From: Hylemonella gracilis
GTDB taxonomy: Bacteria; Pseudomonadota; Gammaproteobacteria; Burkholderiales; Burkholderiaceae_C
Length of the DNA stretch: 64,000 nt
Direction of reading: 5' to 3'
NCBI RefSeq assembly: GCF_004328645.1
Contig: NZ_CP031395.1
Span: 645,501-709,500, forward strand
Shown one piece after another: positions 1,787 through 18,425 of this stretch; the first letter of the stretch is position 1; each line of letters starts with the position of its first letter. The notes under the pieces are model-generated. The model was not told the origin of the DNA and made no database searches. It was given only the letters and a program-made list of their open reading frames with translations. Made by a program: the position numbers and the translations under genes.

Positions 1787-2608
1787 TCACCGCTTCTCAA
1801 CGTAGGCCAACACCGCCTCCAGCATCCGCCGTACCCAAGGCTGGATGCCCACCGCCTTCTCAGGCAGGTAATCGAAAGGCTGTTGCTCCATCATGTAGCT
1901 GGCCTGCGTCATCTCCAGCTGGATGGCGTGCACGCCCTGCGCGGGCTGACCGTGTTGGCGGGTGATGTGGCCGCCCTTGAAGCGGCCGTTGAGCACGGCG
2001 CTGTAGCCGCTCAGCCCCGCCTGACGGCCGATGGCGAGCAGCTGTTCGGCCAGGGCCGGGTCGCAACTGGCGCCGTCGGCGGTGCCGAGGTTGAGGTCGG
2101 GCAGACGGCCCTCGAAGAAGCGCGGCACGACCGAGCGGATGGAATGCGCGTCCCACAAGGCGGCGACACCGTGCACGGCCTTGAGGCGCGCGAGTTCGGC
2201 ACCGAGCCGCGCGTGGTAGGGGCGCCAGATCGCTTCGCGGCGCGCGGCGATCTCGGCGGCGTCGGGTTGCTCGGCCGGGTTCAGGTACAGCGGCGTGTCG
2301 TCGAAGGTGTCCACCGGGCACAGGCCGGTCACGCTCTGGCCGGGGTAGAGGCTGCTGCCATCGGGCGGGCGGTTGAGGTCAACGACGTAGCGCGAATGCG
2401 TGGCCACGAGCACCGAGGCGCCCAGTTCGTCGGCGAAGTCGTAGAGCCGTTCCAGGTGCCAGTCGGTGTCGGGCACGCCGCGCGCTTCCTCGGTCAGGCG
2501 CTGCGCCAGCGCGGGCGGCACGTGGGTGCCCACATGCGGCATGGAGATCAGCAGCGGGCGCGTGCCTTGGCGGAAACGGAAAGGCGGCTCGTTCGTGGCA
2601 AAGTTCAT
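1787..2608 (-). CDS. hutG: N-formylglutamate deformylase
   Basis: A 273-residue N-formylglutamate amidohydrolase, the last enzyme of the five-step histidine pathway. It releases formate and L-glutamate from N-formyl-L-glutamate. Typical motifs are SMPHVGTHVP near residues 22-31 and DTDWHLERLYDF near 47-58, with zinc-ligand-type His and Asp residues and DAHSIRS further on. It is the last gene of the minus-strand hut operon. Its ATG overlaps the hutF stop codon (ATGA), which suggests translational coupling. Confidence 0.95.
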   Translation of the reverse strand: MNFATNEPPFRFRQGTRPLLISMPHVGTHVPPALAQRLTEEARGVPDTDWHLERLYDFADELGASVLVATHSRYVVDLNRPPDGSSLYPGQSVTGLCPVDTFDDTPLYLNPAEQPDAAEIAARREAIWRPYHARLGAELARLKAVHGVAALWDAHSIRSVVPRFFEGRLPDLNLGTADGASCDPALAEQLLAIGRQAGLSGYSAVLNGRFKGGHITRQHGQPAQGVHAIQLEMTQASYMMEQQPFDYLPEKAVGIQPWVRRMLEAVLAYVEKR

Positions 2609-4071
2609 GGTCGGGTGTTCTCCAGCAGCTGACGCCGGGCGTTGATGAAGCCCGCGCGCGCGGGGGCGCTCTGGGCATGTTGTCCGTCTTGCACGCGCAG
2701 TTGCCCACCGGCCCAGACGCGGACAATGGCCGACTGGCGGTGACTGGCGAAGACATGGGTGGCGAGCATGTCCTCAGGCGTGTTCAAGCCCTGCAGCAGC
2801 GGATGCGCGGCGTCCAGCTCCACCAGGTCGGCGCGCTGGCCGGCCACCAGGCCTGCTGCAGCGCCATCGCCATTGTTCAAGTGACCGCTGGCCTGCGCGC
2901 CCCCCGCGACGGCCGCCAGGGTCATGGCGGTGGCCACCTGCGGCTGCTCGGCCGTGGCCAGCACATTGCGCTGGCAGGTGGCCAGGCGCTGGCTGTATTC
3001 GAGCATCAGCAGTTCCTCGGCGGCATTCACCGTGGCGTGGCTGTCCGAGCCCAGGCCCCAGCGGCCACCGGCGGCCAGCCAGCGCGGCAGATCGAAGATG
3101 CCGTCGCCCAGATTGGCCTCGGTGGTTGGGCACAGGCCGGCCACCGCGCCGGTCGCCGCCGCGCGGCGGTACTCCTCGGCGTCCATGTGGGTGGCGTGCA
3201 CCAGGCACCAACGCGCGTCCACCGGCGCGTGGTCCAGCAGCCACTGCACGGGGCGCTGGCCGCTCCAGGCCAGGCAGGCGTTGACCTCGCCGGTCTGCTC
3301 GGCGATGTGGATGTGGATGGGGGCCGTAGCGTCCTGTGCCGTCAGGCCAGCGATGGCCTCGCGCAAGGCGTCCGGCGGCACAGCACGCAGCGAATGCGGC
3401 GCCAGGCCCAGGCGCGCACCCTGCGCCCCGCAGAGCGGGCGCAGGCGGTCGAGCAGGGCCAGCATGTTGTCGGTGCGGCGGATGAAACGACGCTGGCCCG
3501 CGCTGGGCGGCGTGCCACCGAAACCGCTGGTCTGGTAGAGCACCGGCAGCAGGGTGAGGCCGATGCCGGCGGTCTGCGCCGCGCGCAGAAGGCAGAGCGC
3601 GAGCGTGGCGTCGTCGGCATAGGGCTGGCCGTCGAGGCCATGGTGCACGTAGTGGAACTCACAGACGCTGGTGTAGCCGGCTTCCAGCATCTCCACGTAG
3701 AGGCCGGTGGCCACGGCTTCCAACTGCTCGGGCGTGATGGCGCCGGCCAGGCGGTACATCAGCTCGCGCCAGCTCCAGAAGCTGTCCTGCGCGGTGCCGC
3801 GGTATTCGGTCAGGCCGCCCATGGCGCGCTGGAAAGCGTGCGAGTGCAGATTGGGCAAGCCGGGCAGCACGGGACCGTTCGCCTGTTCCACACCAGGCGG
3901 CAGGCTGCTGCCGGGCCGCACGGCGGTCAGCGTGCCGGCGGCGTTCCACCGCAGCAGCACATCGCGCGCCCAGCCCCCGGGCAAGAGGGCGTGGGCGGCG
4001 AATACGTCCTTCCCGGGGTCAGGCCGGGAGGTCTGAACGACCCGGGCCTGGGTTTCAGGCGACTTGGGCAT
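2605..4071 (-). CDS. hutF: Formimidoylglutamate deiminase
   Basis: An amidohydrolase-superfamily enzyme of about 488 residues that converts N-formimino-L-glutamate to N-formyl-L-glutamate plus ammonia, defining the HutF/HutG branch of histidine catabolism. The metal-binding HSHAFQRAMGGL lies near residues 76-87, with HIAEQTGEV in the middle and GSDSHATVNAAEEL in the C-terminal half. The frame is open up to 4134, but the ATG at 4071 (MPKSPETQ) fits the family. It overlaps the end of the aminotransferase gene by 17 bases, whereas the longer start would overlap by 80. It ends in a 4-base overlap with hutG. Confidence 0.94.
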   Translation of the reverse strand: MPKSPETQARVVQTSRPDPGKDVFAAHALLPGGWARDVLLRWNAAGTLTAVRPGSSLPPGVEQANGPVLPGLPNLHSHAFQRAMGGLTEYRGTAQDSFWSWRELMYRLAGAITPEQLEAVATGLYVEMLEAGYTSVCEFHYVHHGLDGQPYADDATLALCLLRAAQTAGIGLTLLPVLYQTSGFGGTPPSAGQRRFIRRTDNMLALLDRLRPLCGAQGARLGLAPHSLRAVPPDALREAIAGLTAQDATAPIHIHIAEQTGEVNACLAWSGQRPVQWLLDHAPVDARWCLVHATHMDAEEYRRAAATGAVAGLCPTTEANLGDGIFDLPRWLAAGGRWGLGSDSHATVNAAEELLMLEYSQRLATCQRNVLATAEQPQVATAMTLAAVAGGAQASGHLNNGDGAAAGLVAGQRADLVELDAAHPLLQGLNTPEDMLATHVFASHRQSAIVRVWAGGQLRVQDGQHAQSAPARAGFINARRQLLENTRP

Positions 4072-5257
4072 GGGCTGGCTCCGGGATGTCATCCAGAACT
4101 TGCAGCAAGGCCTGGACAAAACGCAGGTTGTCATCTTCCGTGCCGATGGACACGCGCAGACAGTGTGTGAAACCGGGCTCCTTCCAGGGCTTGACGATCA
4201 CACCGTGGGCCAGCAGCGCCTCGGCCACCGGGCCACTGGGATGGCCGAGGTCCAAGAAGAGGAAGTTGGCCACCGAGGGCGCGATGCGCAGGCCCGCGAG
4301 CGCTTGGCCGGGTCGACCCGGCTGCACCAGTGCTTGCAGGCGTACGACCAGCGCTTCGCGCAGCAGCACGGTTCGGGCCACGCTGGCCTGCATGTGGGCC
4401 GCATCGTTCCAGGCTGCCAACGCGGCGCATTGGGCGGCATGGTTGACGTTGAAGGGTGAACGCACTTTGTCCAGCAAGGCCACCAGCGCTGCGTCACTGG
4501 CCATGCCATAGCCCACGCGCAGGCCCGCCAGACCCCAGGCCTTGGAGAAGGTGCGCAGCACGATCCACGGGCCGCTGCGCGCGCGCAGCAAGTCCAGCAC
4601 CTCGGGGTAGTCCGGCTCCAGGCGAGCGTATTCGTAATAGGCTTCGTCCAGCACCAGCACCGTGTGCGCCGGCGTGGCGGCCAGCAGACGCTTCATGGCC
4701 GCTTGGTCAAAGGCGCAACCCACCGGGTTGGACGGGTTGGGCACAAAGGCCAGCTTGGGGCCGCGCGCCAACGCCGTGCACCAGGCGTCGACGTCGAAGG
4801 TCATGGCCTCGGTCAGTTCGAGCAGTTCAAGCTCGGCGCCCATCATGCGGGGATAGATCTCATGCAGGCCGAAAGCTGGACGCTGCGTCAGCACGCGATC
4901 GCCTGGTTGCAGAAAAACCTCGCACAGCAGCTTGAGCAAGTCTTCCGAGCCATTGCCGAACACCAGGCGCTCGGGCGCCACGCCCGTGCCCGCGGCGATG
5001 GCGGCACGCAAGGCCGAGCAACGTGCGTCGGGGTAACGGCTGAATTCACCGCTCAGGGCCAGCTCGGCCAACACCCGGCCCACGGCCAGGCTCGCACCAA
5101 AGGGGTTCTCGTTGCTGGCCAGGCAGGCCAGGGGCTGCTCCGGTGACAAGCCGTAGCGCTGGCGCACTGTGGCGGGCGAGAGGCCGGCGTTGTAGTCCGG
5201 CAGGCCACGCGCCTGCGGTCGGGCCAAGGACATGAGCAGATCGGGCGAGGTGTTCAT
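4055..5257 (-). CDS. HisC-like pyridoxal-phosphate aminotransferase inside the hut operon
   Basis: A 400-residue class I/II aminotransferase of the histidinol-phosphate aminotransferase family. Visible motifs are ASNENPFG at 48-55, GNGSEDLL at 101-108, NPSNPVG at 174-180 and DEAYYEYA at 204-211, with the PLP lysine in RTFSKAWGLAGLRVGYG (Lys 239). No other his biosynthesis gene lies in the window. It overlaps the upstream oxidase gene by 4 bases (ATGA) and the downstream hutF by about 17, so it is a true operon member. In this setting it more likely transaminates histidine or imidazole-pyruvate, or an aromatic amino acid, than histidinol phosphate. That role is inference. Calling it hisC would imply biosynthesis, so the symbol is left empty. 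Confidence 0.9.
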   Translation of the reverse strand: MNTSPDLLMSLARPQARGLPDYNAGLSPATVRQRYGLSPEQPLACLASNENPFGASLAVGRVLAELALSGEFSRYPDARCSALRAAIAAGTGVAPERLVFGNGSEDLLKLLCEVFLQPGDRVLTQRPAFGLHEIYPRMMGAELELLELTEAMTFDVDAWCTALARGPKLAFVPNPSNPVGCAFDQAAMKRLLAATPAHTVLVLDEAYYEYARLEPDYPEVLDLLRARSGPWIVLRTFSKAWGLAGLRVGYGMASDAALVALLDKVRSPFNVNHAAQCAALAAWNDAAHMQASVARTVLLREALVVRLQALVQPGRPGQALAGLRIAPSVANFLFLDLGHPSGPVAEALLAHGVIVKPWKEPGFTHCLRVSIGTEDDNLRFVQALLQVLDDIPEPAHAQVA

Positions 5258-6642
5258 AGACCGAAGATCTTTCCAGGGTTGAGCAGGTTCAACGGGTCCA
5301 GCGCCTGCTTGATGGCACGCATGGCCGCCAACTCCTGCGGCGTGCGGCTGAGGTCGAGGTACGGTTTTTTGTGCAGGCCGATGCCGTGCTCGGCCGAGAC
5401 GCTGCCCTGGAAACGGGCGACGAGTTCATACAGCAGATCTTCCAGCAGTTCCGTCTGGTGGTCGATGCTGGCGCCGTCGGTGGTGACGTGCAGATTGCTG
5501 TCGCCCACATGGCCGAAGAACAGCGTGTGGTGGCCGGGCCAGCGCGCGTCCAGGGTCGCGCGGCAGGCGTCGGCGAAGCGGCCGATGTCGGCCTGCGGCA
5601 GGCTGACGTCGAAGTTGATGGGCGGACGCAGTCGGGTCGGGAACTCGGCCGGCGCCTCCCGCAGTTTCCACAGCGCGCGCGCCTGCGCGGTTGATTGGGC
5701 GAGCACGGCATCGACCACCTCACCGGCCTGCAAGGCTTCGTCCAGCACGGTCTCCACGGTGGCGTGCAAGCCACCTTCGTCGCGGCCGTCGAGGTCGACC
5801 AGGGCCAGCAAGGGATGCGCCTGCGCGAACGGCGCTTGCAATTGCTGCCAGGCCAGCGAGGTCTGCACAAAATCGTCCCACATCAGCTCGAATGCGGCCA
5901 CGTCATTGCCAAAATACGTGCGCAAACGCGCCAGCAAGGCAAGCGCGGCGTCGAAGTGCGGCAAGGCCAACAGGGCCGTGGTGCGCGCGCCAGGCCGGGG
6001 CCGCAGGCGCAGCAGCACGCGTGTGACGATGCCCAGCGTGCCTTCGGCACCGATGAAAAACTGCTTGAGGTCGTAGCCGGTGTTGTTCTTGATCATGGGC
6101 CGCAGCATGGGCAGCACCGTGCCGTCGGCCAGCACCACTTCCAGCCCCAGCACCTGTTCGCGCAGCATGCCGAACTGCAGCACGCCGTTGCCTCCGGCAT
6201 TGGTGGCGACGTTGCCACCGATCTGGCAGCTGCCGCGCGCGCCCAGGTCCACGCCGAACTGCAGGCCCACGGACTGCGCCGCTTCCTGCACCGCTTGCAA
6301 GGTCGCGCCGGCCTGGGCCTTGAGCACGGCGGTACGGGCGTCGACCTGCTCGATGGCATGCATGCGTTCGAGCGACAGCAGCACGCAACCGGGCACGGGC
6401 ACGGCCCCGCCCGCCAGGCCGGTACGCCCGCCTTGGGGTACCACGGGCACGCGGTGCGCGCTGCACAGGCGCATCAGCGCGCTCACTTGAGGCGTGTTGC
6501 GCGGGCGCGCCAAGGCCAGCGGACGCACGGGTGGCGCGCCACTCCAGTCCGTGTGATACGTCTCGGGCACCTCGGGGCCGGGCAAGACGAGGTCTGGCCC
6601 CAGGGTGGCCGTCAGTTCTTCCAGGAAACGGGTCGGGGACAT
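5254..6642 (-). CDS. FAD-linked 2-hydroxyacid dehydrogenase (GlcD/D-lactate dehydrogenase family) in the hut operon
   Basis: A 462-residue flavoprotein of the vanillyl-alcohol-oxidase/GlcD superfamily. The FAD-binding half carries PQGGRTGLAGGAVP near 69-82, QIGGNVATNAGGNGV near 141-155, KNNTGYDL and GAEGTLGIVT. The C-terminal half carries FFGHVGDSNLH, SAEHGIGLHKK and the family ending LLNPGKIFGL. Such enzymes oxidise D-2-hydroxyacids to 2-oxoacids. It lies 31 bases after hutI and overlaps the aminotransferase start by 4 bases. Oxidation of imidazole-lactate to imidazole-pyruvate, followed by transamination to histidine, would explain its place here, but this is inference. The substrate cannot be read from sequence. 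Confidence 0.9.
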   Translation of the reverse strand: MSPTRFLEELTATLGPDLVLPGPEVPETYHTDWSGAPPVRPLALARPRNTPQVSALMRLCSAHRVPVVPQGGRTGLAGGAVPVPGCVLLSLERMHAIEQVDARTAVLKAQAGATLQAVQEAAQSVGLQFGVDLGARGSCQIGGNVATNAGGNGVLQFGMLREQVLGLEVVLADGTVLPMLRPMIKNNTGYDLKQFFIGAEGTLGIVTRVLLRLRPRPGARTTALLALPHFDAALALLARLRTYFGNDVAAFELMWDDFVQTSLAWQQLQAPFAQAHPLLALVDLDGRDEGGLHATVETVLDEALQAGEVVDAVLAQSTAQARALWKLREAPAEFPTRLRPPINFDVSLPQADIGRFADACRATLDARWPGHHTLFFGHVGDSNLHVTTDGASIDHQTELLEDLLYELVARFQGSVSAEHGIGLHKKPYLDLSRTPQELAAMRAIKQALDPLNLLNPGKIFGL

Positions 6643-6673
6643 GCCGGGTCTTTCGTGTGCGTTGGACGCTTGC

Positions 6674-7921
6674 TCAGTCTCGCCCTGCGATGCGCGCGAC
6701 GCGCCCCTGGCGCACGATGGTGCAAGACGGTTTGTGTCCCAACCAGTAGGGCAGCTCGGCGACGTCTTGCAAGGGCCACAGCACGAAGTTCGCGGGTCGC
6801 CCCGCCGCCAAACTTCCGTGGCTCTGCCGCAGGCCCAGAGCCTCGGCCGCGTGGCGGGTCACCCCCGCCAGCACCTCGGGCACGGTCAGGCGAAACAAGG
6901 TGCAGGCCAGGTTCATCATCAGCAGCAAGCTGAGCGTGGGTGAGGTGCCGGGGTTGTGGTCGGTGGACACGGCCATGGGCACACCCGCCGCGCGCAGGGC
7001 GGCGATGGGAGGCAGGTGCGTGTCGCGCAGGAAGTAATAGGCCCCGGGCAGCAGCACGGCCACGGTGCCAGCCTGCCGCATGGCGGCGATGCCCTCGGCA
7101 CTCAGGTGCTCAATGTGGTCACACGAGAGCGCCCCGTAACGCGCGGCCAACGCCGCCCCGCCCATGTCCGACAGTTGCTCGGCATGCAGCTTGACCGGCA
7201 GGCCCAGGGCCTGCGCGGCGCGGAACACCTGCTCGGTCTCAGCCAGCGAAAACGCGATGCGCTCGCAGAACACGTCCACCGCGTCGACCAGGCCTTCGGC
7301 CGCCAGGGCTGGCATCATCTCCTCGCAGACCAGGTCGATGTAGGCCTGGCTGCGACCCGCGTACTCCGGCGGCAGGGCGTGCGCGCCCAGGAAAGTGGTG
7401 CGCACGGTGACGCCGAACTGTGCGCCCAGACGGCGTGCCACCCGCAGCTGGGCACGTTCGTGTTCCAGGCTGAGGCCGTAACCCGACTTGATCTCGATGG
7501 CGCAGACGCCTTCGTCCAGCAGGGCCTGCAGGCGCGGTGCGGTCTGGGCCAGCAACTCGTCCTCGCTCGCGGCGCGCGTGGCGCGCACGCTGGAGACGAT
7601 GCCGCCGCCGGCACGGGCCACGTCCTCATAGCTGGCACCCGCCAGACGCATGGCGAATTCGTTCGCACGCTGGCTCGCGTAGACCAGGTGGGTGTGGCAG
7701 TCCACCAGGCCTGGCGTGGCCAGGGCACCCAGCCCGTCATGGCGCGGCAGGTCGGCGTAGGTCGTCGGCAAGTCGGCCCGCAGGCCCAGCCAGGCGATGT
7801 GACCCTCGGTGACCACCAGAGCCGCATCGGACAGCGCGGCGGAGCCCGGTGCGCAGGCTTCGGGCGCCAGGGTCAGGTCGGTCCAGACGCCGTCGGCGCT
7901 GGGCAATTGTGGGACTGTCAT
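6674..7921 (-). CDS. hutI: Imidazolonepropionase
   Basis: A 415-residue amidohydrolase that opens imidazolone-5-propionate to N-formimino-L-glutamate, the third step of histidine catabolism. The metal site [16 protein letters not shown] is at 74-89, followed by [13 protein letters not shown], the central KLHAEQLSD (near 250), CDHIEHL, and [10 protein letters not shown] near 320. The ATG overlaps the hutD stop (ATGA). Length and motif order are those of a normal, complete HutI. Confidence 0.96.
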
Positions 7922-8535
7922 GCGTGCTCCCGTTCAATGGACACGGCCAACAAGGCGAGCGGGCCGTCTTGCACTTCGGGCCGCAGGTGCACGGGCCCAC
8001 CGCCATCCTGCCACCACAGGCCCTGGTTGGCGGCAAGCGTCCATGCGGCGCTCGCTTCGTTTCCCGGCGCGGCCGCAATGTCCGTCAGTTGCCAACGACC
8101 CGCCAGCGCCATCACCAGCCCTTCGCCCGTGGCCGGCAGTGGTGCCGCTTCTCGGTACACCCTCACGCGCGCGCGGCAACGGCCACGACGCACCATGACA
8201 TTGAAGTCATGGCAATCGCCGGCGATCAACTCCCCCACCACCCGCGCTTCGCCCGCAAAGGCATAGGGTTCCCAAGGACGGTCCAGCCGGTGGTCGAAGG
8301 CCCCGTCGGCGCTGCGCAGGCGCACGCCCGCGCCTTCGAGCAAGGTGATGACGCGGTCCACCTGCTCGAAGCGCGAGAAGGGGCCATCGCTGGCGATGTG
8401 GGCGATGCTGACCCGCCAGTCGAACGACGCCATGCCCGCGCCCGGCGGCTGGCACACGATCTCGCGCGTGACACCGCCGCCGTTTTTCCACGGCGTGGCG
8501 GGCAGTTGCTGGCGGTCGAAGAAGTGGCTGGGCAT
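7918..8535 (-). CDS. hutD: HutD family protein
   Basis: A small cupin-like protein of about 205 residues. The family mark [15 protein letters not shown] lies near the N-terminus and [17 protein letters not shown] follows. HutD proteins are found in hut operons. They have been proposed to limit pathway flux (urocanate toxicity), but no catalytic role is settled. The frame is open to a TTG at 8598 that overlaps the hutU stop. I prefer the ATG at 8535 (MPSHFFDRQ) because it matches the family's short N-terminus. Neither start has a strong Shine-Dalgarno. It overlaps hutI by 4 bases. Confidence 0.9.
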
Positions 8536-8594
8536 GGCGCGGAGGGGATGAGGCGGTTCTGACAGCGGCCGTTTTTGCGTTCTGACGTAGCCCG

Positions 8595-10301
8595 TCAACG
8601 CAGCATGGGCAGCTGCAAGCCGAACTTCTTCGCAGTCTCAATCGCCAGTTCATAACCGGCGTCGGCGTGGCGCATCACGCCCGAGCCGCAGTCGTTGACC
8701 AGCACCCGCGCCAGCCGCTCGGCCGCCGCATCGCTGCCGTCGGCCACGATCACCATGCCCGCGTGCTGCGAATAGCCCATGCCCACGCCGCCGCCGTGGT
8801 GCAGGCTGACCCAGCTGGCGCCGCCCGCAGTGTTGAGCAGGGCGTTGAGCAGGGGCCAGTCGCTCACGGCGTCGGTGCCGTCCTTCATGCCTTCGGTCTC
8901 GCGGTTGGGGCTGGCCACCGAGCCGGTGTCCAGGTGGTCGCGGCCAATCACGATGGGCGCCTTGAGCTCGCCCTTCTTCACCATCTCGTTGAAGGCCAGG
9001 CCTGCGATGTGGCGCTCGCCCAGGCCCAGCCAGCAGATGCGCGCGGGCAAGCCCTGGAAGGCTATGCGCTCGCGCGCCATGTCCAGCCAGCGCACCATGT
9101 GCTTGTTCTGCGGGAACAGTTCCTTGAGCTTGGCGTCGGTCTTGTAGATGTCCTCCGGGTCGCCCGAGAGGGCCACCCAACGGAAGGGCCCCTTGCCCTC
9201 GCAGAACAGCGGGCGGATGTAGGCCGGCACGAAACCGGGGAAGTCAAAGGCGTTCTTCACGCCCGCGTCGAAGGCGACCTGGCGGATGTTGTTGCCGTAG
9301 TCCACGGTCGGGATGCCCATGGCCTGGAAGTCCAGCATCGCCTGCACGTGCACCGCGCAGCCTTGCGCGGCAGCGGCCTTGAGCACGGCGTGCTGCGCCG
9401 GGTCGCGCTGCGCGGTCTTCCACTGCGCCACGGTCCAGCCCGGAGGCAGGTAGCCGTTGATCAGGTCGTGGGCCGAGGTCTGGTCGGTGACGATGTCGGG
9501 TCGAATGGCGTTCGGGCCACCGGCCTTGGCGCGCCGCGCCAGCTCGGGCAGCAGCTCGGCCGCGTTGCCCAGCAGGGCGATGGAGACGGCTTCCTTCTTC
9601 GCCGTGTGGTGCCGGATCAGCGCGAGGGCGTCGTCGATGTCCTTGGCCTGCTTGTCCACGTAGCGGGTGCGCAGGCGGAAGTCGATGCTGCTCTGCTGGC
9701 ATTCGATGGCCAGCACGCAAGCGCCGGCCAGCACGCCGGCCAGCGTCTGCGCGCCGCCCATGCCGCCAAGGCCGGCGGTCAGGATCCACTTACCAGACAA
9801 GTCGTTGTTGTAGTGCTGGCGGCCGGCCTCGACGAAGGTCTCGAAGGTGCCTTGCACGATGCCCTGGCCGCCGATGTAGATCCAGCTGCCGGCCGTCATC
9901 TGGCCATACATGAACAGGCCCTTGCGGTCCAGCTCGTTGAAGTGCTCCCAGTTGGCCCACTTGGGCACCAGGTTGGAGTTGGCGATCAGCACGCGCGGCG
10001 CGTTGGCATGGGTCTTGAACACGCCCACCGGCTTGCCCGACTGCACCAGCAGGGATTCGTCCTCGTTCAGTTCCTTGAGGCTGGCCAGGATCTGGTCAAA
10101 GCATTCCCAGTTGCGCGCGGCGCGGCCGATGCCGCCGTAGACCACCAGGGCCTGCGGGTTCTCGGCCACTTCCGGGTCCAGGTTGTTCTGAATCATGCGG
10201 TAGGCCGCCTCGGTGATCCAGTTCTTGCAGTGCAGGGTATTGCCGCGCGGGGCGCGGATCACGCGGGTCGGGTCCAGGCGGGGGTCGGTGGTGGTGGTCA
10301 T
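8595..10301 (-). CDS. hutU: Urocanate hydratase
   Basis: A 568-residue enzyme converting urocanate to 4-imidazolone-5-propionate with tightly bound NAD. Characteristic stretches are [31 protein letters not shown], the NAD-binding [13 protein letters not shown], and near the C-terminus [17 protein letters not shown] with [15 protein letters not shown]. The start at 10301 ([11 protein letters not shown]) is chosen over an upstream ATG at 10319 because AGGAG (10309-10312 region) precedes it at good spacing. It lies 50 bases downstream of hutH in the same transcription unit. Confidence 0.97.
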
Positions 10302-10351
10302 GGAAAGCTCCTGGGACAAATCTTGGAACGGGCTTGGAACAGAAGAAGAAC

Positions 10352-11908
10352 TCAGGCCAGGGCCGGCAGGCTCACGGACGGCGCGGCCTGCGCCAGGGCG
10401 CCACCACGCACGAGGGCGATGGCGGCCTGCAGGTCGGGGCTGATGTGGCGATCCTCATCGAGGTGCGGCACCTGCTGGCGCAGCAGCGCGCGCACGGCGC
10501 TCAGCGGCGCGCTGGTCTGCAGCGGCGCATGGAAGTCGCAGCCCTGAGCCGCGCACAGCCATTCGATGGCGATCACGGCCATGGCGTTCTCGGCCATGGG
10601 CAACAAGCGGCGGGCGCCGTGCGCGGCCATGGAGACGTGGTCTTCCTGGTTGGCCGAAGTCGGAATGGAGTCCACGCTGGCCGGGTAGGCACGCTGCTTG
10701 TTCTCCGAAACCAGGGCGGCGGCCGTGACCTGCGGGATCATGAACCCCGAGTTCAGGCCGGGCTTGGGCGTGAGGAAGGCCGGCAGCCCTGACAACGCCG
10801 GGTCCACCAGCATGGCGACGCGGCGCTCGGCCAGCGAGCCGATTTCGCAGATGGCCATGGCGATCATGTCGGCCGCGAAGGCCACGGGTTCGGCGTGGAA
10901 GTTGCCGCCCGAAAGCGCCTCGCCGCCATGGTCAGCACTGAAGATCAGCGGGTTGTCGGACACACCATTGGCCTCGGTCTCCAGCATCGACGCCGCGTGG
11001 TGCAGCAGGTCCAGGCAGGCCCCCATCACCTGCGGTTGGCAGCGCAGGCAATACGGGTCCTGCACACGCTCGTCGCCCTGCAGATGGGAGGCGCGGATGG
11101 GGCTGCCGGCGAGCAGTTGGCGCAGCGCCTCGGCGGTCGCGATCTGACCCCGGTGCTTGCGCAGGGCGTGGATGCGCGGATCGAAGGGCGCGTCCGAGCC
11201 CTTGGCCGCGTCGGTGGCCAGGGCCCCGGTCAGCAAGGCCGACTGGAACAGACGCTCGGCCTCGAACAAGCCGGCCAGCGCGTTGGCGGTGGAAAACTGG
11301 GTGCCGTTGAGCAGGGCCAGCCCTTCCTTGGGCCCGAGCGTGACCGGCGCCAGCCCCGCGCGGGCCAGTGCCTCAAGGGCCGGCAGGCGGCCACTCGGCG
11401 TCTCGGCCTCGCCGACACCGATCATCACCGCCGTCATATGCGACAGCGGCGCCAGGTCGCCCGACGCGCCCACCGAACCCTGGGCCGGTACCACCGGGAT
11501 CACGCCGCGCGCCAGCATGGCTTCCAGCAAGGCCAGGGTGGCGGGGCGGATGCCCGAGGCACCTTGGGCCAGGCTGACCAGCTTGAGCGCCATCATCAAG
11601 CGCGTCACCGGCTGCAGCGTGGCTTCGCCCACGCCGGCTGCGTGCGAGAGCACGATGTTGCGCTGCAGGGTTTCCAAGTCCTCGGCGGGGATGCGCACGC
11701 TGGCCAGCTTGCCGAAGCCGGTGTTGATTCCGTAGACCGGCTCGCCGCGCGCGACGATGCGCGCCACAGTCTCGGCGCTGGCGACAACGGCCGGCGCGGC
11801 ATCGGGGTCCAGGCGCAGTGCCGCGCCGCGGTAGATGGCACGCCAGTGGGCCAGGGGCACGTCGCCCGGTGTGAGCGTCAGGGTCGAGAGGGTGGGGTCA
11901 GCTGTCAT
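10352..11908 (-). CDS. hutH: Histidine ammonia-lyase
   Basis: A 518-residue aromatic amino acid lyase that deaminates L-histidine to trans-urocanate, the first step of the pathway. The autocatalytic MIO cofactor forms from the Ala-Ser-Gly at 148-150 in [14 protein letters not shown]. Other family marks are [11 protein letters not shown] near 58-68, SHAAGVGE, and the C-terminal half with [21 protein letters not shown] and [11 protein letters not shown]. The gene starts just downstream of a HutC-type operator that overlaps its ribosome-binding region, so hutH probably heads its own repressed transcript in addition to read-through from hutC. Confidence 0.97.
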
Positions 11909-11912
11909 GGCA

Positions 11913-11930
11913 TTCCTGTCTAGACAAGTA
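11913..11930 (-). promoter_or_regulatory. HutC operator before hutH
   Basis: Read on the minus strand this is GTACTTGTCTAGACAGGA, with a perfect 10-base palindrome TGTCTAGACA at 11917-11926. It matches the two sites before the ABC importer (consensus CTTGTMTAKACAG) and resembles hut operators bound by HutC of enteric bacteria and pseudomonads. It ends about 8 bases before the hutH ATG, so bound HutC would block initiation of translation or a promoter just upstream. Binding by HutC is inferred from motif and position. Confidence 0.8.
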
Positions 11931-11976: not shown

Positions 11977-12747
11977 TCAGGTGTGCACGGGATTGCCGTC
12001 GGCGTGGTAACGGCTGCCCAGTCGGTAGCGGTTGGCCGGATGCAGGCAGCGCACCAGGGTCACGGGGGTGCTGCGGGTCCAGGTGCGGCGCGTCAGCAGC
12101 AAGCAGGGCTGGGTGACGGGCATCTGGAGTTGCAAGGCCTGCTCGGCCGTGGGCAGCACCGCGTCCACCACGTGCTCGATTTCGTCGAAAGGCACGTTGC
12201 GCACCAGGTACTCCGACGGCTGCTGCTGGCGGAAATCCTGCTGCCCGTAGTCGGGCACCACGCGCGGGTTGACGTAACGGTCTTCGAGCTGGATGGGCAG
12301 TCCGTCCTCGAAGTGCACACAGACCGAGTGGAAAACCGATTCTCCGGTGCGCACGTCCAGCGCCGCCGCGATGTCCAGCGCGGCCGCGACCCGCTCCACC
12401 GCCAGGATGTCGCAGCGGTAGTCATGGCCACGGGCGCGGATCTCACTGCCCAAATTGGCGATCTGCAGCAGCGTGGACTGCGGCTTGGCCTCGGCGACGA
12501 AGCTGCCGACGCCCGCCACGCGCACGATGCGACCCTGTTCGCTCAACTCACGTAGGGCGCGGTTGACCGTCATGCGCGCGATGCCGAAATGCGCCACCAG
12601 CTCGTGCTCCGAGGGCAGGCGGTCGCCGGGGCGCAGGCTGCCGTCCTGGATCTTGCGGGCGATGTAGTCCTTGACCTGTTGGTAGAGCGCGACCGAGCTC
12701 GCGGAGGCGTCAGCGCGTGGGCGGGAGGGGGCGGCGGAGCGTGTCAT
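11977..12747 (-). CDS. hutC: Histidine utilisation repressor (GntR family)
   Basis: A 256-residue GntR/HutC-type repressor. The N-terminal winged helix-turn-helix covers residues about 20-85 ([20 protein letters not shown], then [20 protein letters not shown]). It is followed by a UTRA ligand domain, with the typical [19 protein letters not shown] and the [20 protein letters not shown] region. In relatives, urocanate binds UTRA and releases the DNA. The gene sits between the importer genes and hutH, and operators flank both parts of the locus, so autoregulation is likely. It starts 14 bases after the ATPase stop. Confidence 0.94.
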
Positions 12748-12761
12748 GCGATTCGAGGCGT

Positions 12762-13574
12762 TCAGTGCTCGGCGGCGGCCATGGATTCGGCGCGGATTTC
12801 CTCGGTCAGCCGCGCCTTGATGGCCATGAACTCGGGCGAGGTCTTGACCGTGTAGTGGCGCGGGTGCGGGAAGTCCACCGCGATCTCGGTCTTGATGCGA
12901 CCGGGTCGCGCGCTGAACACGGCCACGCGATTGGCCATGAAGATGGCCTCGTCGATGTCGTGGGTCACGAAGAGCACGGTCTTCTGCGCCGACTCCCAGA
13001 TGCCCAGCAGCAGTTCCTGCATCAGCACGCGGGTCTGGTTGTCCAGCGCGCCGAAGGGCTCGTCCAGCAGCAGGATCTTGGGATCGTTCGCCAGCGCACG
13101 CGCGATGGCCGTGCGCTGCTGCATGCCGCCCGAGAGCTGCTTGGGGAAGTGCTGCTCGAAACCGCGCAGGCCGACCTTGGCGATGAAATAGTCCGAACGT
13201 TCCTTCTGTTGCGCCTCGGGCAGGCCGCGCTCACGCAGACCGAAACGGATGTTCTGCTCGATGGTGAGCCAGGGAAACAGCGTGTAGCTCTGGAACACCA
13301 TGCCACGGTCGGCGCCGGGGCCTTCCACGGGCTGGCCATCCAACAGCACCTGGCCGGTGCTGGGTTGGTCCAGCCCCGCGACAATGCGCAGCAGCGTGGA
13401 CTTGCCGCAGCCCGAGGGACCGAGGATCGTGACGAAGTCGTTCTCGCGCACCTCGAAATCGATGGGCGTGAGCGCCTGGGTCTGGACGCCCTTGGGGCTG
13501 GTGAAGACACGCGAGACCCCCTGGATGGACAGCTGCACGGACGGCTTGGGGAAAGTAGGGACCGAGGCACTCAC
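12762..13574 (-). CDS. ABC transporter ATP-binding protein (SsuB/TauB type)
   Basis: A 270-residue ATPase of the nitrate/sulfonate/taurine importer family. It has Walker A GPSGCGKST, Q-loop MVFQSYTLFPWLT, signature LSGGMQQRTAIARAL, Walker B ILLLDEPFGALD and switch His in THDIDEAI. The start is a GTG at 13574 that overlaps the permease stop codon (GTGA). No in-frame ATG exists between the permease end and the conserved region. The open frame reading further upstream is a shadow of the permease. It energises the importer encoded by the two genes before it. Confidence 0.93.
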   Translation of the reverse strand: MSASVPTFPKPSVQLSIQGVSRVFTSPKGVQTQALTPIDFEVRENDFVTILGPSGCGKSTLLRIVAGLDQPSTGQVLLDGQPVEGPGADRGMVFQSYTLFPWLTIEQNIRFGLRERGLPEAQQKERSDYFIAKVGLRGFEQHFPKQLSGGMQQRTAIARALANDPKILLLDEPFGALDNQTRVLMQELLLGIWESAQKTVLFVTHDIDEAIFMANRVAVFSARPGRIKTEIAVDFPHPRHYTVKTSPEFMAIKARLTEEIRAESMAAAEH

Positions 13575-14404
13575 AGCGAACTCCAGGCGAACAGGCGGCG
13601 ATTGAGGGCCTTGAAGGCGAAATCGGAAACCAGGCCGATGAGGCCGATCACGATGATGCCGAAGATGATCTGGCCGGTGTTGAGCAGGGCCTGGCTGTCG
13701 GTGATCATGTGGCCAATGCCCGAGGACGAACCGATCAGCTCGGCCACGATGACGTAGGTCCAGGCCCAGCCCAGCACGAGGCGCAGGGTCTCGGCGATCT
13801 CGGGCGCCGCGCCGGGGATCAGCACGCGCTGGACGATGCCTTGGTTGCTGGCGCCCAGGGTGTAGGCGGCTTCGACCAGGTCCTTGCGCGCCGCGCCGAC
13901 CGTGACCGCGACCATCAGCACGATCTGAAACACCGAGCCGATGAAGATGACCAGCACCTTCTGCAGCTCGCCGATGCCCGCCCAGAGGATGAGCAAGGGG
14001 ATGAAGGCCGAGGCCGGCAGGTAACGGCAGAACGACACAAAGGGTTCGAGAAAGGCCTCGACGCCCTTGTGCGCGCCCATGGCGATGCCCAGGGGCACCG
14101 CGACCACGGCCGCCAGCAGGAAGCCGCCGAAGACCCGCCACACCGTCATGCCGATGTCGTGGATGAAATTGAACTCGGTGAACAGCAGCCAGCCTTCCCT
14201 CGCCATGGTCAGCGGACTGGCCAGGAAGGTGGACGAGACATAACCGCCGAGCGTGAAGAACGCCCAGACACCGAAGAACACGACGAAGAAGCCCAGGCCC
14301 AGCAGCCAGCGCGCACGCGCGCTGACCGCTTGCAGGGGCGCCAGGCCACGGCGCTTGCGCCGCGCGGGCGCGACGCTGGCCGACATGACGGGAGACGTGG
14401 TCAT
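13571..14404 (-). CDS. ABC transporter permease (SsuC/TauC type)
   Basis: A 277-residue inner-membrane permease with about six predicted hydrophobic segments: the first near residues 30-55 (WLLGLGFFVVFFGVWAFFTL), then SIGMTVWRV-type and EAA-loop features. Its EAA-like stretch includes KDLVEAAYTLGASNQGIVQRV around 190-210. The gene lies four bases after the binding-protein stop and overlaps the ATPase start. Substrate is not deducible from the sequence. Operon position implies histidine, urocanate or a related imidazole compound. Confidence 0.92.
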   Translation of the reverse strand: MTTSPVMSASVAPARRKRRGLAPLQAVSARARWLLGLGFFVVFFGVWAFFTLGGYVSSTFLASPLTMAREGWLLFTEFNFIHDIGMTVWRVFGGFLLAAVVAVPLGIAMGAHKGVEAFLEPFVSFCRYLPASAFIPLLILWAGIGELQKVLVIFIGSVFQIVLMVAVTVGAARKDLVEAAYTLGASNQGIVQRVLIPGAAPEIAETLRLVLGWAWTYVIVAELIGSSSGIGHMITDSQALLNTGQIIFGIIVIGLIGLVSDFAFKALNRRLFAWSSL

Positions 14405-14408
14405 GGAC

Positions 14409-15365
14409 TTACTTGATGTAGCTGGTGTCGAACATGGCGTCGTAGTTGTCCGGCAGCTTGCGGATCACGCCGGCTTCCAGCAGGATGGCCGCCGCGTCCT
14501 TCATGAAGGCCTGCAGTTCACCCGCGAAGAACTTCTGGTTGGCGGCCTTGTCCTGCCAGCGCAGGTACTTGGACGAATTGGCGAAGGCTTCGCCGGTCTG
14601 CTTGACGGCCGAGCCCATGATCTCGTTGGCCTTGGCCGGGTCGGACTTGATCATGGCCAGGGCCTCGAAGTACGAATTGGCCAGGGCCTGGGCCGCCTTG
14701 GGGTTGGCCTTGAGCCAGTCCGGGGCGCAGCCGACCGTGTCCATCACCATGGGGTAGTCCAGGGTGGTGGCGATGATCGTGCCGGCGGCCGGGTTGGCAC
14801 GCACGGTCGAGAGGTAGGGCTCGTAGGTCATCGTGGCGTCGTTCTGGCCGGTCACGAAAGCCTGGGCCGAGGCCTGGGGCGACAGCGTCACAGTCTTGAC
14901 GTCCTTCATGGTCAGGCCGTTCTTGCTCAGCATCCAGGCCAGGCCGAAGTAAGGCGCGGTGCCAGGCGCGTCCACGCCCACGGTCTTGCCCTTGAGGTCG
15001 GCGATGCTCTTGATGTCGTTGCGCACGGCCAGGCCATCGGCGCCGTAGGACTTGTCCATCTGGAAGATCTGCACGATGGGCACGCCGTTGGTGTTCCAGG
15101 CGACGTGGGTCTCCACGGTCGTCGCCGCGCACTGGATGGCCTTGGCGGCCAGGGCCAGGTGGCGGTCCTTCTGCGGAATCATCTTGATTTCCACGTCCAG
15201 GCCGTTCTTCTTGAAGATGCCGGCCTTGTCGGCCAGCGTCAGCGGGGCAAAGCCGGTCCAGCCCGACATGCCGAGGGCGATCTTGGTGTCCTGCGCCTGG
15301 ACGGCGCCGGCGACCAGCAGGGCCGAGGCCAGCAGGGCCGCGGATTTCACGAGGGACTTGCGCAT
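14409..15365 (-). CDS. ABC transporter substrate-binding protein (SsuA/NMT1-like) of the hut locus
   Basis: A 318-residue periplasmic binding protein. Signal peptide: MRKSLVKSAALLASALLVAG, cleaved near AVQA-QD. The mature part has the NMT1/SsuA fold signature (GWTGFAPLTLADKAGIFKKN, then DLKGKTVGVDAPGTAPYF). The frame is open further upstream, but 15365 gives the signal peptide and is preceded by GGAAA. Two HutC-type operators lie 80-230 bases upstream, so the importer is probably induced with the pathway. Most characterised histidine importers in hut loci belong to other families (HutXWV, HutT), so this family choice is notable. The ligand is inferred. Confidence 0.9.
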   Translation of the reverse strand: MRKSLVKSAALLASALLVAGAVQAQDTKIALGMSGWTGFAPLTLADKAGIFKKNGLDVEIKMIPQKDRHLALAAKAIQCAATTVETHVAWNTNGVPIVQIFQMDKSYGADGLAVRNDIKSIADLKGKTVGVDAPGTAPYFGLAWMLSKNGLTMKDVKTVTLSPQASAQAFVTGQNDATMTYEPYLSTVRANPAAGTIIATTLDYPMVMDTVGCAPDWLKANPKAAQALANSYFEALAMIKSDPAKANEIMGSAVKQTGEAFANSSKYLRWQDKAANQKFFAGELQAFMKDAAAILLEAGVIRKLPDNYDAMFDTSYIK

Positions 15366-15442
15366 ACAAATTTCCTTTGCCTGAGAAAAGAAGGACCGCT
15401 TGCGCGGCACGGAAACCCGGCCCAGAGGTCTGATTGACCCAA

Positions 15443-15458
15443 CCTGTCTATACAAGAT
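15443..15458 (-). promoter_or_regulatory. HutC operator, proximal to the ABC importer
   Basis: On the minus strand the site reads ATCTTGTATAGACAGG, nearly the same as the hutH operator. The core TGTATAGACA occupies 15447-15456. It lies about 80 bases before the binding-protein start, where a promoter would be expected. HutC binding is inferred. Confidence 0.78.
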
Positions 15459-15573
15459 GAAGCGTGCTCAACAATCCGCCCCACCGTCTCCAGACGGCTT
15501 TCGCGTCGAGAGTCAGCACCGGTCCGGTGTATGGTGCCCCAGCCTGGGGCAGTTTGAATACGGACCTGCACCA

Positions 15574-15592
15574 TCTTGCTGTATAGACAAGC
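15574..15592 (+). promoter_or_regulatory. HutC operator, distal copy
   Basis: The plus strand reads TCTTGCTGTATAGACAAGC, and its complement is GCTTGTCTATACAGCAAG. The core TGTATAGACA lies at 15580-15589. Its centre is 133 bases from the proximal operator, far enough for looping between two bound dimers, although a second promoter is equally possible. The same motif is not seen elsewhere in the window apart from the three hut sites. Confidence 0.72.
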
Positions 15593-15686
15593 CTGTGCTA
15601 GGAAAGGTGCGCTCAGTTCAGCACAAGCCGTGCCAGTTCGAGCAGACAGACCAGTGACGCAGGTCCGTGCGCGGCGTCTCAGAGCC

Positions 15687-18425
<2,739 letters not shown>

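Follow-up and report, generated by a model that had tools for sequence, protein, structure and literature searches.

Why should an operon for histidine utilization (Hut) carry two extra enzymes inside its chain of overlapping genes? The question is raised by a 64,000-nucleotide stretch of the Hylemonella gracilis genome (contig NZ_CP031395.1, positions 645,501 to 709,500; this whole stretch is called the window). A sequence-only reading of the window, made without database searches, had noticed a flavoprotein dehydrogenase and a HisC-like aminotransferase between hutI and hutF, with the hut genes in order, and this arrangement was borne out by profile matches and by the coordinates of the open reading frames (ORFs). 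The two genes, referred to below as FAD (after flavin adenine dinucleotide) and AT (aminotransferase), are:

5254-6642, minus strand: FAD, a flavoprotein of 462 amino acids with the Pfam domains FAD_binding_4 and FAD-oxidase_C
4055-5257, minus strand: AT, a HisC-like aminotransferase of 400 amino acids dependent on pyridoxal phosphate (PLP), with the Pfam domain Aminotran_1_2

The answer that we favor, with a probability of roughly 0.63, is that FAD and AT constitute a built-in side entry, through which imidazolelactate is converted to imidazolepyruvate and then to histidine, the substrate of HutH. Co-distribution with hut genes, the swapping of dehydrogenase partners beside AT, and the active site of the FAD enzyme all point in this direction. 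The FAD enzyme would oxidize the imidazole-bearing D-2-hydroxyacid D-imidazolelactate to imidazolepyruvate, and would pass the electrons to the respiratory chain or to another acceptor. AT would then act as an imidazolepyruvate aminotransferase, with the glutamate that the Hut pathway itself yields as the donor, and the resulting L-histidine would be degraded by HutH. HutC repression would in turn be lifted by the urocanate arising from this histidine, and the side entry may therefore feed its own induction.

The co-distribution is seen at several taxonomic depths. Among 26 genomes of the same genus (10 of them less than 90% complete), hutH was found in three, and AT (E ≤ 1e-60) together with FAD (E ≤ 1e-100) in precisely those three; the pair is thus not absent from the operons of close relatives. 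The sequence-only reading had also proposed a search of related hut loci, and in 399 genomes of the family, AT was found in 24 (E ≤ 1e-60), hutH in 201 (E ≤ 1e-150), and an FAD orthologue in 28 (E ≤ 1e-110; 62% identity or more), with AT and FAD together in 18. One FAD copy (G028; L021/L018) is broken across two frames, through decay or assembly error, and gave a partial match. HutH was encoded in 23 of the 24 AT genomes, compared with 201 of 399 overall (Fisher p = 1.6e-6), and in 24 of the 28 FAD genomes (Fisher p = 1e-4), both p values being indicative only, since the genomes are related. All 24 AT loci of the family were mapped, and one or more hut genes share the stretch with AT in 23; G403 is the exception. 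FAD and AT are therefore each tied to hut independently, and most often lie together. A class-wide draw of 369 genomes, at a threshold (E ≤ 1e-75) that would miss more divergent relatives of AT, returned AT in three, which indicates that the trait is rare; all three copies lie beside hut genes, with hutG as the only core-gene neighbor in G176. A recent one-off insertion was rejected, as the pair is common to other genera of the Comamonadaceae, and AT to other orders. The ratio of nonsynonymous to synonymous substitution rates (dN/dS), computed against two genomes of the same genus, was 0.10-0.15 for FAD and AT, and 0.04-0.22 for the hut genes. Recurrence in other hut loci, and these dN/dS values, indicate that the pair is not a chance arrangement; it exists as described, is conserved, and evolves under purifying selection.

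The phylogeny of AT extended this linkage beyond the family. Named genomes were scanned with four AT sequences, and the best 80 of 576 confirmed stretches were used; two loci (L072 and L096) were left out, as the extraction was too short, and L001, L009, L016-L018, and L020 were merged as duplicates. In the resulting tree of 102 rows (quick IQ-TREE run, LG+G4), 48 AT rows, including that of the window, formed one clade (Shimodaira-Hasegawa-like approximate likelihood ratio test, 100), and 42 of these were hut-linked, compared to none of the remaining 54 rows. Hut-linked members came from Comamonadaceae, Pandoraea, Pseudomonas, Serratia, Prodigiosinella, Symbiopectobacterium, Komagataeibacter, Solimonas, and others. 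No match above 100 bits to hut, FAD, or flavin mononucleotide (FMN) enzyme queries was found in 53 HisC-like control loci, although 12 of the 54 control loci, and three of the 48 clade loci, are shorter than 10 kb. Amidohydrolase matches to hutF of 24-26% identity in four controls (50-81 bits) fall below the 100-bit limit and were not counted as hut. Among the clade loci called hut-linked, L048 was counted on hutG, and L107 on hutG with a 34% hutC-like gene, and several clade loci are near-duplicates (L027 equals G007, L033 is close to L110, and L041 is close to L042).

This linkage bears on an alternative that the sequence-only reading had itself put forward, a general module for aromatic 2-hydroxyacids and amino acids, such as phenyllactate and indolelactate, that hitch-hiked into the operon. 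The best solved match of AT is an aromatic aminotransferase of Mycobacterium tuberculosis, mouse LDHD is described as accepting many D-2-hydroxyacids with hydrophobic side chains (passages of PMC10589216), and 4 of the 28 FAD orthologues are not hut-linked, all of which would suit such a module. It is weakened by the hut linkage of the AT clade (42/48 against 0/53 controls), and with a purely hydrophobic ligand, the conserved E105 of AT and N343 of the FAD enzyme would not normally be expected. We regard the aromatic module as improbable.

For the side entry, the strongest argument comes from the dehydrogenases that accompany the AT clade. Within 10 kb of the 48 clade ATs, a dehydrogenase of the FAD/GlcD type was found in 29 loci, an FMN enzyme of the L type (PF01070) in nine, and either of the two in 33; four of the six clade loci that are not hut-linked also carry one of these types. 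In Serratia inhibens and Prodigiosinella, the FMN enzyme directly adjoins AT. The S. inhibens enzyme, the one compared, has (S)-mandelate dehydrogenase as its best solved match (6bfg; 339 bits, E = 3e-100), and a 736-residue lactate-oxidase chain scores 333 bits over its whole length. With D and L stereochemistry assigned from family knowledge, the occurrence of unrelated D- and L-type dehydrogenases beside one and the same AT suggests a module that runs from 2-hydroxyacid to 2-oxoacid to amino acid, and the hut setting suggests that the amino acid is histidine. In other lineages, the dehydrogenase slot would thus be filled or doubled by an FMN enzyme of the LldD/mandelate-dehydrogenase type acting on the L isomer. 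Such enzymes are partners only in the hut loci of those lineages, and not in the window operon. LldD homologues (36-47% identity) occur elsewhere in the genome in all 24 AT genomes of the family, and in the genome of the window an LldD-family homologue (39%; L022, 215-1336), with an in-frame stop, lies ~9 kb downstream of hutG.

The product of FAD is proposed to be an FAD-dependent D-2-hydroxyacid dehydrogenase of the GlcD/VAO type, and more specifically a D-imidazolelactate dehydrogenase. FAD_binding_4 and FAD-oxidase_C, the domains required of the VAO/PCMH family, are both present. Reference residues were drawn from parts of two published structural studies (PMC7801405, PMC10589216) and, in the numbering of human D-2-hydroxyglutarate dehydrogenase, comprise R386, H434, H441, E475, and H476 for catalysis and metal binding, and T390, K401, Y432, and N443 for the C5 carboxylate. 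The window enzyme shares the VAO/PCMH family and the catalytic His/Glu/Arg set with this human enzyme and with mouse LDHD, and keeps all five catalytic and metal residues (R328, H378, H385, E418, and H419). It differs from both in the pocket for the second carboxylate, in which none of the four residues is kept, and A332, N343, F376, and T387 stand in their place. A polar Asn instead of Lys would be a better match for a neutral heterocycle than for a carboxylate.

N343 was found in 35 of 47 FAD-like rows. It is present in every one of the 31 rows with at least 56% identity, in Marinomonas, and in the three hut-linked enzymes of Pseudomonas and Pandoraea (51-54% identity), and is missing in all five homologues (L137-L141; 47-51% identity) whose fetched stretches gave no hut match above 100 bits. 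One of the latter, L141 in G420, lies ~8 kb from hut-type transporter genes and ~12 kb from hutH. The K. xylinus enzyme (L037) was not included in the residue table. Five genomes of one genus (g93: G117, G222, G299, G363, and G420) contain a second FAD paralogue (47-48% identity), which is located ~22-24 kb from AT in G222, G299, and G363, and on a different contig in G117; the one examined, L141, is without N343.

AT is proposed to be a HisC-like PLP aminotransferase that acts on imidazolepyruvate and histidine. Its best NCBIfam match is PRK05166, and it falls under the cut-offs of both HisC models (524.9 of 540 bits for PRK05166; 257.8 of 276.55 bits for TIGR01141). The genome has its own biosynthetic HisC in the his cluster, beside hisB and hisH, which passes the latter cut-off with 290.3 bits, and AT is therefore not needed for biosynthesis. 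Compared to HisC and PRK05166, AT shares the family and the PLP core, in which K239 (the PLP lysine), R247, and R368 (one of two phosphate/carboxylate arginines) are kept, and differs in lying outside the his cluster, in a separate clade, with residues of its own. W358 is present in 48/48 clade rows and in none of the 54 controls, H132 in 46/48 and 0/54, and E105 in 47/48 and 2/54. Two further residues were considered by reference to the M. tuberculosis HspAT structure (as given in part of PMC4703992) and dropped or weakened as arguments against HisC function. The position of HspAT Arg337 is Lys356 in all 48 clade rows and Arg in 53 of the 54 controls, the sole Lys control being the HisC of the window genome, so that Lys356 alone is no argument against histidinol phosphate. 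Likewise, the Phe that replaces HspAT Tyr127 (F129 here) is Phe in all 54 controls.

These residues and scores also bear on the idea that FAD encodes a dehydrogenase of D-2-hydroxyglutarate or glycolate that works for the glutamate and formate end of the pathway, with AT as a spare HisC. Family-level similarity, and the Lys356 that AT has in common with the true HisC, are in its favor, but the his-cluster HisC passes a cut-off that AT does not reach, and the genome contains a separate FAD homologue with the K/Y/N set (L010). As the four C5-carboxylate residues are all swapped, identity with D-2-hydroxyglutarate dehydrogenase was rejected, and so was identity with the glycolate oxidase subunit GlcD, for which the score was 265.8 bits against a cut-off of 567.9 (TIGR00387). 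This idea is accordingly held to be highly doubtful.

Several observations weigh against the side entry, and the sequence-only reading, which had advanced it as a simple hypothesis, is upheld in part only. Its support comes from the distribution of the genes, the exchange of dehydrogenase partners, and the active site of the FAD enzyme; the separability of the genes, loci without hutH, and the isomer speak against it. FAD occurs without AT in 10 of the 28 FAD genomes, all of which were mapped (six hut-linked, four not). AT occurs without an FAD orthologue in five of the 23 hut-linked AT genomes (G155, G180, G223, G273, and G340); these five stretches gave no dehydrogenase match to the FAD or FMN queries, and the annotated gap and flank ORFs of G340, G273, G155, and G223 belonged to other families or had no match. 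Across the AT clade, 13 of the 42 hut-linked loci have neither dehydrogenase type in the mapped stretch. In G174, G176, and G396, FAD lies beside hutG (with hutF and hutD in two of them), and neither hutH (E ≤ 1e-150) nor hutU was found, so that breakdown via HutH looks impossible there; these loci represent either a remnant, a salvage role, or a different substrate. Gene separability and the loci without hutH are the main open problems of the side entry. N343 is missing in three FAD homologues within 10 kb of AT (L048, L126, and the second copy in L120), as well as in the distant (28%) Komagataeibacter enzyme L036. Active-site residues are better at excluding substrates than at proving imidazole, and Lys356 is compatible with histidinol phosphate as a substrate of AT. 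The window dehydrogenase would be of the D type, whereas the classical imidazolyl-lactate work of Coote and Hassall in 1969 reportedly concerned the L isomer. Finally, the corresponding dehydrogenase of Delftia is NADP-linked, according to the title of that paper in the reference list of PMC6567437. As a separate observation, L130 and L136 combine an ABC (ATP-binding cassette) transporter ATPase, hutD, hutF, and hutG with FAD, in genomes in which hutH (E ≤ 1e-150) and hutU were not detected.

Some of these points would be accommodated by the same chemistry in another role, in which the pair recovers imidazolepyruvate and imidazolelactate leaked from histidine, by promiscuous transaminases and lactate dehydrogenases, during growth on histidine, instead of using imported imidazolelactate as food. 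This would account for the position in the hut operon and for the occurrence of either gene alone, and in G176, which has FAD and AT but in which hutH was not detected, histidine could still be salvaged by the pair. In humans, low-level transamination of histidine is described, with imidazole-lactate arising from imidazolepyruvate (part of PMC9283133). However, the swap to a second, L-specific dehydrogenase, and the nearby transporters, look more like a catabolic entry. We consider the salvage role unlikely, while giving it some weight, and retain the side entry as the preferred explanation.

The remainder of the operon is that of a standard Hut pathway of the Pseudomonas type, with HutF, HutG, and HutC. 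The following genes and sites accompany FAD and AT:

15579-15590 and 15444-15455: HutC-box-like palindromes, both before the transporter genes
12762-15443, minus strand: ABC importer comprising an ATPase, a permease, and an NMT1-type binding protein (Pfam); the first start codon is not settled
11977-12747, minus strand: hutC, GntR-family repressor (TIGR02018, 307 bits, cut-off 220)
11916-11927: HutC-box-like palindrome before hutH
10352-11908, minus strand: hutH, histidine ammonia-lyase (TIGR01225, 678.6 bits, cut-off 539.15)
8595-~10301, minus strand: hutU, urocanate hydratase (TIGR01228, 932.5 bits, cut-off 375); the ORF reaches 10319
7918-~8535, minus strand: hutD (PF05962, 171.3 bits, cut-off 25); the ORF reaches 8598 from a TTG
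6674-7921, minus strand: hutI, imidazolonepropionase (TIGR01224, 465.7 bits, cut-off 298.15)
2605-4071, minus strand: hutF, formimidoylglutamate deiminase (NF006684, 677.1 bits, cut-off 525)
1787-2608, minus strand: hutG, N-formylglutamate deformylase (TIGR02017, 353.9 bits, cut-off 278.75)

HutH, U, I, F, G, and C each scored above their NCBIfam cut-offs, giving a full set of the HutF/HutG type, and HutD passed the Pfam cut-off while remaining below that of NCBIfam (PRK11396, 126.6 of 292 bits). All genes are on the minus strand, in the transcription order binding protein-permease-ATPase-hutC-hutH-hutU-hutD-hutI-FAD-AT-hutF-hutG, and the two enzymes inside this overlapping chain are what sets the window apart from the standard pathway. 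The overlaps of 4 to about 17 bases noticed at the outset were recovered: 4 bp for FAD/AT and 17 bp for AT/hutF, with a further 4 bp each for hutF/hutG and hutD/hutI, and a gap of 31 bp between hutI and FAD. The AT/hutF value holds for an hutF ATG at 4071 (it is 80 bp with the longer ORF start at 4134), the start codons of hutU, hutD, and hutF having been picked by eye. The interval first assigned to the operon, 3800..11930, leaves out hutG and most of hutF.

No HutC-box-like palindrome precedes FAD, and FAD and AT are therefore probably under hut control, presumably as part of a common transcript. The three palindromes were the sole HutC-box-like matches in the 64 kb, with two mismatches allowed to the consensus, and 3 of 100 shuffles equaled that number. 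A scan of the window for promoters and terminators gave nothing exceeding shuffles. The importer is probably the HisXYZ transporter that a survey of HutC regulons predicts for Comamonadaceae (in part of PMC5343134). The operon is flanked by a B12-dependent methionine synthase-like gene (15687-18425), upstream of the transporter genes, and by a lumazine synthase-like gene (1235-1771), downstream of hutG.

The chemistry of imidazolelactate is old; the window offers candidate genes for it, in a variant of the Hut operon and not in a new kind of system. Pseudomonas (now Delftia) acidovorans, a member of the Comamonadaceae, the family of the window genome, reportedly has an imidazolyl-lactate NADP oxidoreductase, which we take to be EC 1.1.1.111. 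This organism is described as interconverting histidine and imidazolylpyruvate via EC 2.6.1.38 (passage of PMC6567437, citing Coote and Hassall 1969). The proposed side entry has the same two-step logic leading into histidine, and the histidine-2-oxoglutarate aminotransferase of Delftia would have a candidate gene in AT. The dehydrogenases differ: in contrast to the NADP-linked enzyme, that of the window is a flavoprotein of a D-specific family, and Pfam placed only FAD-enzyme domains in it, with none of the NAD(P)-linked kind. The words aminotransferase, hisC, and imidazole have zero occurrences in the main text of the HutC regulon survey (PMC5343134), and no report of the gene pair, of a gene assignment, or of the D/L partner swap was found among the open-access papers searched.

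Further AT loci show other gene combinations. A clinical Escherichia coli plasmid (L146; NZ_CP018117.1, ~13658-17407) has the same three-gene set as S. inhibens: an AT homologue (51%; labeled hisC), then an alpha-hydroxy acid oxidase, and an iron-containing alcohol dehydrogenase. A hutU-like fragment is located upstream of the set. AT matches were found in plasmid records of Klebsiella (31), Escherichia (18), and Enterobacter (13), the neighbors having been read in L146 only, and E105, H132, K356, and W358 are present in all five plasmid ATs examined. On the Sinorhizobium meliloti plasmid pCpl (L149, 508-10089), AT is accompanied by a HisD-like dehydrogenase, a short-chain dehydrogenase/reductase (SDR), and a hutC gene. 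HisD-like and SDR genes also accompany AT in L031, L034, L035, and L045, with a Zn-dehydrogenase and an ABC importer in some of these, and such sets possibly represent an alcohol-level feeder into the imidazolelactate route. In two hut loci (L108, 6494-7420; L021, 9844-10854), hutU and hutD are separated by a PhyH (phytanoyl-CoA dioxygenase-family) gene. The hut locus of G273 (L110, 2699-7536) has no match to hutF and includes genes of the arginase and IclR-regulator families as well as a second PLP aminotransferase; the map of the Alicycliphilus locus (L033) resembles it.

In Rhizobium (L150, 7825-17164) and Shinella (L151, 6745-17816), the AT loci include a Rieske oxygenase, a 2Fe-2S protein, a DUF2817 gene, and an FAD enzyme, together with formaldehyde-detoxification genes in Shinella, and N-demethylation of a methyl-imidazole compound is possible there. 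The combination of AT and an FAD enzyme with a Rieske oxygenase suggests a further alternative for the window, namely that its enzymes act on an imidazole hydroxyacid that is N-methylated or modified in some other way, for example one derived from methylhistidine, which joins the pathway after demethylation. The FAD enzymes of Rhizobium and Shinella, however, have other pocket residues (D, S, and V), and no oxygenase gene is present among the identified genes of the window operon, so that we give this alternative very little credence.

Set beside the side entry proposed for the window, these loci raise a broader possibility, which we advance tentatively and at less than even odds: the AT clade may be the hub of a so far unrecognized network through which imidazole 2-hydroxyacids, and the compounds that they derive from, are channeled into the breakdown of histidine. 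The D isomer would enter via FAD enzymes and the L isomer via FMN enzymes; an alcohol-level feeder would use HisD-like, SDR, and further dehydrogenases (in Serratia, Prodigiosinella, Celerinatantimonas, and Sinorhizobium, in the last beside hutC), and a Rieske variant in Rhizobium and Shinella would remove N-methyl groups, with parts of the network being plasmid-borne. Most of the annotated copies encountered are labeled hisC, hisD, or FAD-binding oxidoreductase. If the side entry is correct, a histidine side route known from biochemical work of 1969 in this bacterial family would gain its genes, and the hisC annotation on many plasmid records would be corrected. The side entry would also explain how microbes reclaim imidazolelactate, which is described as a metabolite in human urine (part of PMC9283133).

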